Below are positions 55,785-58,092 of a stretch of 64,000 nt of DNA, one piece after another; position 1 is the first letter of the stretch, and every line of letters starts with the position of its first letter. The DNA is from Bacteroidota bacterium. GTDB lineage: Bacteria; Bacteroidota; Bacteroidia; Chitinophagales; Chitinophagaceae. The notes beneath the pieces are model-generated. The model searched no databases, had not been told where the DNA came from, and worked only from the letters and a program-made list of their open reading frames with translations. Location of the stretch: assembly GCA_026391125.1 (NCBI GenBank), contig JAPLEO010000009.1, forward strand, positions 1 through 64,000, read 5' to 3'. Position numbers and translations under genes: made by a program.

Positions 55785-56252
55785 TTAAGGAGCAACAACA
55801 ACGTTGCGCGTTAAGCTTTCGTCGAGCGAAATGAAGGTTTCTGTACGTTCAATTCCCTTGATCTTTTGCAACTCATCGTGCAATACGTAACGCAATTGTT
55901 TGATATCCTTACAAACAATCTCCGCAAACATACTATAGTTACCGGTGGTATAGTTTAGTCGAACAATTTGAGGGATTTTCTTCAATTCTTTAGCCACACT
56001 GTCGTATAATGAGCTTTTTTCTAGAAAAATTCCAATGAAAGCGATGACATCGTAGCCTAAAATTTTGAGGTCTATCGATAATTTTTTACCTTTAACTATA
56101 CCAGATTCTTCGAGCTTCTTGATACGTACGTGTATGGTACCGCCTGATACGAAAAGCTTCTTACCCAGGTCGGCGTAAGAAATCTCAGCATCTTCCATCA
56201 TTTCCTGAATTATTTGCAGGTCCAATTTGTCTAAATTTAATTTGGGTGTCAT
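55785..56252 (-). CDS. Lrp/AsnC family transcriptional regulator
   Basis: 155 aa, LDLQIIQEMMEDAEISYADLGKKLFVSGGTIHVRIKKLEESGIVKGKK and RAM-like C-terminal domain. Confidence 0.93.
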   Translation of the reverse strand: MTPKLNLDKLDLQIIQEMMEDAEISYADLGKKLFVSGGTIHVRIKKLEESGIVKGKKLSIDLKILGYDVIAFIGIFLEKSSLYDSVAKELKKIPQIVRLNYTTGNYSMFAEIVCKDIKQLRYVLHDELQKIKGIERTETFISLDESLTRNVVVAP

Positions 56253-56336: not shown

Positions 56337-56369
56337 TTTGTAAAATTGGGATGAATGGTTATATATTTG
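56337..56369 (+). promoter_or_regulatory. Bacteroidota-type promoter, TTTG-N21-TATATTTG
   Basis: -33-like TTTG at 56337-56340, -7 element TATATTTG (TAnnTTTG) at 56362-56369. Confidence 0.65.
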
Positions 56370-56399
56370 TCCTCCAAACAAAGAAATAGTTCTTTATAC

Positions 56400-56515
56400 T
56401 GTGGGGTGATGAAATTTTTGGCAGACATGCCCTCTTGTCTCGGGGGTGAGGGTCGACCACTGAACTTTGTACTATGGCTAACTTCTTCGTGGAGGTTCGA
56501 TCCCTCCCCCTACAG
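56400..56515 (+). tRNA. tRNA-like RNA (class II/Leu-like) with about 44-nt variable region; possible atypical or decayed tRNA
   Basis: TGTGGGG (56400-56406) pairs with CCCTACA (56508-56514); U8; D-arm ATG...TTGGCAGA...CAT; anticodon-arm CCCTC-TTGTCTC-GGGGG; T-arm GGAGG-TTCGATC-CCTCC; discriminator G515. Confidence 0.55.
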
Positions 56516-56519
56516 CACT

Positions 56520-56564
56520 AAAAACCCTCTATTAAATTGATAATCAATTTAATAGAGGGTTTTT
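56520..56564 (+). terminator. Strong intrinsic terminator downstream of the tRNA-like gene
   Basis: AAAACCCTCTATTAAATTGAT-a-ATCAATTTAATAGAGGGTTTT, perfect 21-bp arms plus T tract. Confidence 0.92.
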
Positions 56565-56622
56565 TATTTGTATTAGGTGACACTAAGGGTGACACTAAAA
56601 ATATTTTTTAACACCCCACAGA

Positions 56623-57063
56623 TTACGCAAATATTTTTCCAGATAAACTTTTATACTTGCTAAGCGTCAAGGTGCTTTTCAATATTTCAGACTGGCGGTA
56701 ATAAACCCGCCCACCAATTCTATGATCTTGGAGTAAGCCTTTGTCGGTCCATGATGCTAAGGTTGCTTTTGTAATTGCTGGTTTGAACAACTTACATGCT
56801 TCGGCTGGAGAAATAAGTCTTTCTTCTTGCTCTGACATTACAAAGCGCACCTCCTCCCTAATCATAGGTCTAAAAAGTTCAACCAATTGTTCCGCAGTAA
56901 TACCATTCAATAATATTTGGTTGGCAAAACTACTAGAGTCATTTACCTTTTTGGGATTATCTAATGACCCACGATAAATGCTTGACGGTGCGTTTTCTTT
57001 TTTAATAGCACCCTTAAAAATTGTTTGCATATGCGGTTCACAAATGCAAAAACTGTTGGTCAC
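56623..57063 (-). CDS. HTH_17/excisionase-like DNA-binding protein
   Basis: SPAEACKLFKPAITKATLASWTDKGLLQDHRIGGRVYYRQSEI. True start may be 57030 (MQTIFKG). Confidence 0.75.
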   Translation of the reverse strand: MTNSFCICEPHMQTIFKGAIKKENAPSSIYRGSLDNPKKVNDSSSFANQILLNGITAEQLVELFRPMIREEVRFVMSEQEERLISPAEACKLFKPAITKATLASWTDKGLLQDHRIGGRVYYRQSEILKSTLTLSKYKSLSGKIFA

Positions 57064-57111
57064 CTACCACACAGTCTTCTATTTTAATAATTGGTCTGAT
57101 TCGATCAGCAC

Positions 57112-58092
57112 CTAATTTTTAATATTCATCTTAACCATTTCAGTCTGTGTATATTTGACTATCACACCATCTTTTGTAGTCAATTCTATATTTGTATACT
57201 GTCCCTTTTTAAGTAATCTTGATAGCTTCCTTATCATTTCTTGATTTTCTTTATCATTATTAGTTGTCTTAATATGTGTTACAGAACCGTCACTAATATT
57301 TACCGTTATTTGTTTGTACTTACCAGTTCGTATTTCTTCAATCACACTTCTTTCCCCCCCATTCATTATACTGAAATAGTAGTCATTATCGATAATAAGC
57401 CTTTCATTTTCAAAAAACGAACTACATAATTCATTTAGGTTAATTAATATGAACGAACGATCATTTAATTCTTTTAATACGCTAGCAACATTTATTTCAT
57501 GGGCTTCATTTAAAGGCTTGCCAATATTGACAATCCCCAATAAACCATCTTCATCGATTAGAATTGCATATTTCATTTGTGACAAACAAGTGGCTATTAC
57601 ACAAGACCCAAAGAGAGAAAAGTTATTTTCTTTCAACTTTTTCTCTAATTCTTCATCGGTAACATTTTCCAACTTTGTAATTAATTCTTTAAGAAAATTC
57701 ATCACAGGTTCCGGTACACTTGGATAGTGCTTATAGTTTGCCATTTCAGTTCTAAAATCTTTTGCCTTTGCAGCAAACAACTTTTCTTTCAATTCAATTA
57801 TTACCTGCTTTTCAATTCCGAACCTTTTCAATTTTGCAACCATCCTTAACCAGATACATTCAATCAAACTATATTGTCCCCAAGTCATTTCATTCATTTC
57901 ATTCTGCAATAACAATCCCTCCCTTTTCCAGACACTTATATCTCTTCGACTAACCCCGGTTTCTTTGGATCGAAATCGTTGTTGGTGAAAAACTTTAGAA
58001 AGTTCTTGGGTTATAGACTTACCATTATTCTTAAGTGTATCGATAGATTCCTCAAATGGCAACTGGAAAATTTGATTAAATATTTGGGTCAT
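57112..58092 (-). CDS. MerR-like HTH domain protein of unknown function
   Basis: 326 aa, GVSRRDISVWKREGLLLQNEMNEMTWGQYSLIECIWLRMVAKLKRFGIEKQVI resembles a MerR HTH; C-terminal part unassigned. Confidence 0.65.
   Translation of the reverse strand: MTQIFNQIFQLPFEESIDTLKNNGKSITQELSKVFHQQRFRSKETGVSRRDISVWKREGLLLQNEMNEMTWGQYSLIECIWLRMVAKLKRFGIEKQVIIELKEKLFAAKAKDFRTEMANYKHYPSVPEPVMNFLKELITKLENVTDEELEKKLKENNFSLFGSCVIATCLSQMKYAILIDEDGLLGIVNIGKPLNEAHEINVASVLKELNDRSFILINLNELCSSFFENERLIIDNDYYFSIMNGGERSVIEEIRTGKYKQITVNISDGSVTHIKTTNNDKENQEMIRKLSRLLKKGQYTNIELTTKDGVIVKYTQTEMVKMNIKN

Follow-up and report, generated by a model that had tools for sequence, protein, structure and literature searches.

Among the closest described counterparts of the RNA family reported here is the tRNA-dependent route to asparagine of Deinococcus, Thermus, Bdellovibrio and Staphylococcus, in which a non-discriminating aspartyl-tRNA synthetase (AspRS) loads aspartate and the amidotransferase GatCAB, guided by a U1-A72 pair, amidates it. 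The carrier in that route is the decoding tRNA-Asn(GUU), whose product proceeds to the ribosome, and the route is used where the asparagine synthetases AsnA and AsnB are missing. Bacterial GatCAB reads the U1-A72 pair (PMC4206432), and the co-existence of GatCAB, AsnRS and GlnRS without an asparagine synthetase was noted earlier in some Bacteroidetes and left open (PMC4206432). A 2023 review gives the strong aspartate determinants as exactly G73, G34, U35, C36 and C38; bacterial tRNA-Asp normally carries G1-C72, an aid to AspRS (PMC9976931).

The present family has the U1-A72 amidotransferase signal in common with the tRNA-Asn route, as well as, in our proposal, loading by AspRS and amidation by GatCAB. 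It differs in being a separate RNA, one that has the aspartate anticodon GUC in a loop ill suited to decoding and that carries a large variable arm. With bacterial tRNA-Asp(GUC) it shares G34, U35, C36, C38, G73 and G2-C71, but it has U1-A72 instead of G1-C72, a class II body, a pyrimidine at position 37, a U33 that is not kept and a long variable arm. The GG-A-GA-type D-loop, the 3-bp D stem and the long variable arm recall tRNA-Leu and other class II tRNAs, from which the family departs in having G73 rather than A73, the anticodon GUC and a multi-helix variable arm that can reach about 90 nt or more. Like tmRNA (RF00023), it would combine tRNA-like ends with a larger non-decoding RNA, but it possesses an anticodon arm; identity with tmRNA was rejected, relatives having an ordinary tmRNA elsewhere and Rfam giving no tmRNA match. 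Long variable arms and unusual cloverleaf geometry also occur in allo-tRNAs and tRNA-Sec; in a comparison by description rather than computation, the acceptor and T arm of 7+5 bp and the anticodon GUC set the family apart. In the literature searched (open-access papers, without bioRxiv, an earlier description elsewhere being possible), we found no description of this tRNA-like RNA family, which is large, unannotated and apparently undescribed.

A tRNA-like transcription unit in the window

The window, that is, the whole stretch of 64,000 nt that was analysed, holds the following features:

55785-56252, minus strand: AsnC-type (Lrp/AsnC) transcription regulator, divergent from the RNA; Pfam AsnC_trans_reg and HTH_AsnC-type
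56337-56369, plus strand: Bacteroidota-type promoter TTTG-N21-TATATTTG, with TTTG at 56337-56340 and TATATTTG at 56362-56369
56388-56394, plus strand: AGTTCTT leader motif, which we take to be boxA-like; enriched upstream of the RNA across loci
56400-56517, plus strand: tRNA-like RNA body of 118 nt; covariance-model match of 96.4 bits
56400-56406, plus strand: acceptor 5' strand TGTGGGG, carrying U1 of the U1-A72 pair
56409-56428, plus strand: D arm with a 3-bp stem ATG/CAT, which becomes ACG/CGT in relatives
56430-56446, plus strand: anticodon arm CCCTC-TTGTCTC-GGGGG with a covarying stem; loop at 56435-56441, G34, U35 and C36 at 56437-56439, C38 at 56441
56447-56490, plus strand: variable arm, about 48 nt shorter than in aligned relatives, with the junction near 56449/56450
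56491-56507, plus strand: T arm GGAGG-TTCGATC-CCTCC, paired in every row of the alignment
56508-56516, plus strand: acceptor 3' strand CCCTACA (56508-56514), then G73 and an encoded C74; no CCA encoded
56520-56564, plus strand: intrinsic terminator; terminator-like structures are enriched downstream across loci

The observation made in the window, of a promoter, a tRNA-like body and a terminator in succession, is confirmed. An earlier note on this DNA had listed the TTTG-N21-TATATTTG promoter, an acceptor TGTGGGG/CCCTACA with one G-T pair, U8, a TTGGCAGA D-loop, the GGAGG-TTCGATC-CCTCC T arm, the discriminator (G73) and the terminator, all of which are in the sequence. Its reading of these elements as a class II tRNA fold with its own promoter and terminator, bearing GUC on a Leu-like body and an odd position 37, proved correct, and these traits are conserved. 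The variable region of about 44 nt that it described is present but untypical of the family, being a shortened form to which relatives add about 48 nt; the alternative CCCTC/GAGGG pairing that it pointed out is possible in the window copy but was created by this deletion.

The note had also proposed a search of Rfam and a comparison of the locus in relatives. At gathering thresholds Rfam gave no match at the locus to any known family, and a permissive scan returned only low-scoring matches, far below gathering scores and most of them on the terminator hairpin; ARAGORN called 0 tRNA genes. Single-sequence folding of the window RNA is no better than that of shuffles (z -0.13), and the minimum free energy structure differs from the cloverleaf. 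The case for the RNA therefore rests on comparison, and the cloverleaf stands far beyond chance because covariation in relatives supports it.

The window genome, an assembly of 152 contigs, holds a single copy of the RNA by covariance-model search. Just past its terminator, at 56577-56599, lies a direct repeat, GTGACACTA, which recurs downstream of the RNA in relatives (L008, L019, L022 and L025) and could be a binding or integration site. Farther 3', the region 56623-58092 encodes two small proteins of DNA-binding type (a weak HTH_17 and a MerR_1) that have no NCBIfam name and may be part of a mobile element.

Covariation in the fold and the variable arm

The covariance model comprises 26 sequences and 43 pairs, with 99.2% of cells paired, and 15 of its pairs changed on both sides, against 7.6 in shuffles. 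In a broader second sample (106 distinct sequences), whose alignment had been fitted to the structure, this was true of 32 of the 43 pairs, against 20.8 in shuffles. All the tRNA arms (acceptor, D, anticodon and T) display either covariation or invariant pairing. The variable arm is based on a 4-bp stem, GAGG/CCTC, which becomes GAAG/CTTC and GTGG/CCAT in relatives, and continues into an internal loop in which GATAA and CTAAC are conserved. In long forms a 10-bp helix follows, along with a side hairpin and a stretch of conserved GGGTNGACCAC; short forms (110-120 nt) are without this outer part. In these alignments, both the tRNA fold and the variable arm are backed by covariation.

By comparison with aligned relatives, the window copy is without about 48 nt of the large structured arm. 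The deletion takes one strand of the 10-bp helix, but the base stem can still form with one G-U pair. Constrained to the cloverleaf, the window sequence reaches -28.9 kcal/mol versus -35.5 unconstrained, the corresponding values for a relative (L002) being -49.9 and -51.8. The window copy may nevertheless work, because natural family members with short arms have a similar total length (110-119 nt). It may be a functional short form, an impaired deletion derivative or the product of an assembly error.

Distribution and expression signals of the family

A first survey, of 60 related genomes and the window's own, showed that most members of the genus have the RNA, matched as two blocks about 50 nt apart. 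The body measures 165-175 nt in most relatives, within a family range of 110-198 nt. The covariance model finds the RNA in 188 of 299 sampled genomes of the window's order, a few of the weakest matches possibly being ordinary tRNAs. It also finds the RNA in other families and orders of the phylum, where matches below about 60 bits resemble ordinary tRNAs of 73-88 nt and are not to be counted. Hosts recovered by a scan whose pattern required GTCTCG include Chitinophaga, Ferruginibacter, Dyadobacter, Pedobacter, Sphingobacterium, Cyclobacterium, Algoriphagus, Fulvivirga and Saprospiraceae. A blastn search for a plasmid or named-phage origin of the RNA gave no match.

Expression signals recur as well: TTTG-N19-24-TANNTTTG precedes the RNA in 43 of 166 loci (0.45 in shuffles), TANNTTTG alone in 92 (10.5 in shuffles) and AGTTCTT, within 45 nt upstream, in 38 (0.65 in shuffles), while a terminator-like structure follows in 122 (18 in shuffles).

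Long and short copies stand side by side in many genomes, one of each in tandem, which suggests that the outer portion of the arm can be dispensed with or has a specialised role. Tandem copies, often pairing the two forms, are seen at L054, L057, L065, L045, L167, L146 and other loci. A short-form copy at L096 sits on a contig labelled outside Bacteroidia (titled Ignavibacteriales bacterium UTCHB1), indicating either a mislabelled bin or a wider spread.

The pattern that required GTCTCG also matched 87 IMG/VR contigs; of the 80 examined, most are confirmed by the model. Several phage copies sit in arrays of up to 21 ordinary tRNAs, among them a separate tRNA-Asp or tRNA-Asn; the fetched stretch around others (L278, for example) contains no tRNA. 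Neighbouring phage genes include ones for RNA ligase, PhoH, exonuclease and endolysin-like proteins. Other tRNA-like sequences with long inserts but different acceptors (AGTCAGG/CCTGACT; CAAGGAG/CTCYTTG) occur on phage contigs (L343:5063-5185, L343:5268-5412, L342:3170-3300, L293:4332-4447, L285:8135-8251, L291:4341-4504, L304:7212-7350 and L340:4515-4660), and these could be intron-bearing tRNA-Leu or another carrier-type RNA.

Identity elements

Across 168 distinct sequences, G34, U35, C36, C38 and G73 are invariant, and U1-A72 and C74 are each found in 167. The pattern scans of genomes and IMG/VR required GTCTCG, so that only the covariance-model set gives an unconditioned measure of how invariant GUC and C38 are; the loci in that set, free of this requirement, agree on GUC and C38, and neither scan pattern made any demand on G73 or U1-A72. 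The G1-C72 pair of bacterial tRNA-Asp is absent from the family, its place being taken by U1-A72, and this counts against charging by AspRS. Among the ordinary tRNAs of the window genome only tRNA-Asn and tRNA-Gln begin with U, and the ordinary tRNA genes mostly encode C74 without CCA, like the RNA gene. From this identity signature, GatCAB is predicted in the genomes that carry the RNA.

Position 33 is T in 134 of the 168 sequences, C in 25 and G in 9, so that U33 is lost in 34; position 37 is T in 161, C in 6 and G in 1, a pyrimidine in 167. The combination of U33 and a purine at position 37 that marks a canonical decoding tRNA, found in 28 of 28 ordinary tRNAs recovered from the window genome, is thus not that of the family. 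With U33 not conserved and a pyrimidine nearly always at position 37, the RNA is unlikely to decode codons.

The neighbouring AsnC-type regulator

An AsnC-type regulator is divergent from the RNA in 95 of the 127 loci with enough flanking sequence (two of them included after allowing for over-long ORFs), at a median gap of 152 nt; about one quarter of loci are without an adjacent AsnC-type gene. The best NCBIfam match of the window regulator is to AsnC (NF008384), and we name it AsnC-type because its score, 156.6 bits, is below the strict cut-off of 227; its best PDB match is E. coli AsnC (2cg4). The orthologue is absent from 15 of the 19 genomes of the order in which the RNA was not detected. 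In one of the other four (G177, locus L238) the RNA proved to be present but cut by a contig end, which brings the figure to 15 of 18, and a search of the remaining RNA-negative genomes with the orthologue for a missed RNA found none. Two RNA-negative genomes of family f23 (L242 and L243) have a promoter-like stretch, a short AT-rich stretch and a terminator opposite an asnC-like gene, at the expected site of the RNA, possibly a remnant of it.

Co-occurrence with gatB and asparagine synthetases

Co-occurrence was assessed in 78 complete genomes, 46 with the RNA and 32 without, the RNA status of each being taken from a model search that scored a limited number of candidates; gatB served as the marker of GatCAB. 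All 46 RNA-positive genomes have gatB, against 3 of the 32 RNA-negative ones. GlnRS is absent from exactly these three, where GatCAB is therefore expected for glutamine, and from seven RNA-positive genomes; AsnRS is present in all 78. Among the 68 genomes with both GlnRS and AsnRS, gatB occurs in 39 of 39 with the RNA and 0 of 29 without (Fisher p about 7e-20, uncorrected for kinship), and in the two genera that hold both RNA states (g1 and g28) gatB tracks the RNA. The RNA occurs almost exactly where GatCAB would otherwise be jobless.

AsnB of the E. coli type is found in 0 of 46 RNA-positive and 13 of 32 RNA-negative genomes, and AsnA in four genomes of each group, so that 42 of the 46 RNA-positive genomes have neither AsnA (TIGR00669) nor AsnB (NF006949). 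Every genome of the sample has AsnB-like proteins that match the generic model TIGR01536, and these paralogues could possibly include unrecognised asparagine synthetases. The window genome lacks both AsnA and AsnB, and it gives no match to TIGR01536 above the cut-off. Its best AsnB-like protein (G000:C23:257-1879, L266) has a lasso-peptide cyclase model as its top match, below the cut-off of that model.

Proposed function and alternatives

From these sequence comparisons, the RNA is probably a non-decoding, tRNA-shaped carrier for the synthesis of asparagine under AsnC control. AspRS would charge it with aspartate by way of G34-U35-C36, C38 and G73; GatCAB would recognise U1-A72 and amidate the bound aspartate to asparagine; and the product would be released as free asparagine for AsnRS, with the divergent AsnC-type regulator tuning production of the RNA to asparagine supply. 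The features that appear to block decoding would also keep asparagine out of aspartate codons. Of the options raised in the earlier note, an atypical functional tRNA came close, although the evidence favours a non-decoding substrate of AspRS and GatCAB, and a tRNA-derived regulatory RNA is not needed to explain the findings. Against the carrier reading, a non-discriminating AspRS would make asparagine on tRNA-Asn without the RNA; the four RNA-positive genomes with AsnA and the loci without an adjacent AsnC-type gene also weigh against it.

If AspRS were indeed non-discriminating, asparagine would be made by GatCAB on ordinary tRNA-Asn, and the RNA could be a scaffold, competitor or regulator of AspRS and GatCAB. 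Some Bacteroidetes are known to have GatCAB, AsnRS, GlnRS, one AspRS and no asparagine synthetase, and synthesis on tRNA-Asn has been proposed for them (PMC4206432); the large structured variable arm could act as a platform. A pure scaffold, however, need not keep the complete AspRS set plus U1-A72, and AsnRS, which the tRNA-Asn route would make dispensable, was never lost (46 of 46 RNA-positive genomes), so we regard this explanation as unlikely. Asparagine, or aspartate, on the RNA might instead be donated to another acceptor, in cell-wall, lipid or peptide modification. Uses of aminoacyl-tRNAs outside translation are known in principle and no deacylase was identified here, but the AsnC-type linkage, the mutual exclusion with AsnB and the absence of AsnA and AsnB from most RNA-positive genomes point to asparagine supply, and the gene families recurring beside the RNA include no recognised transferase family; a donor role is quite unlikely.

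The complete tRNA fold with GUC could suit an unusual tRNA reading GAC or another codon on the ribosome, yet the variable position 33, the near-constant pyrimidine 37 and the presence of an ordinary tRNA-Asp(GUC) in the same genome and the same phages make this very improbable. The earlier note had allowed for a decayed tRNA, and the deletion and poorer cloverleaf folding of the window copy, which might separately be broken or misassembled, would fit such a relic. For the family, this reading is contradicted by compensatory changes and by conservation in more than 90 sampled genera, and the natural short arms mean that even the window copy may work; that the family is a decayed tRNA or an incidental small RNA without a conserved role is extremely improbable.

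Conclusions

If the carrier reading is true, a large unannotated RNA family works in amino-acid synthesis and not in decoding, which would explain why many Bacteroidota with GlnRS and AsnRS but without asparagine synthetases have kept GatCAB, and the phage copies would be viruses carrying the RNA to boost amino-acid supply. We lean towards the view that in a whole branch of bacteria and their phages a dedicated RNA cofactor, controlled by an asparagine sensor, has taken the place of asparagine synthetase as the means of making free asparagine, and that here the tRNA shape has left translation to serve as a metabolic carrier.
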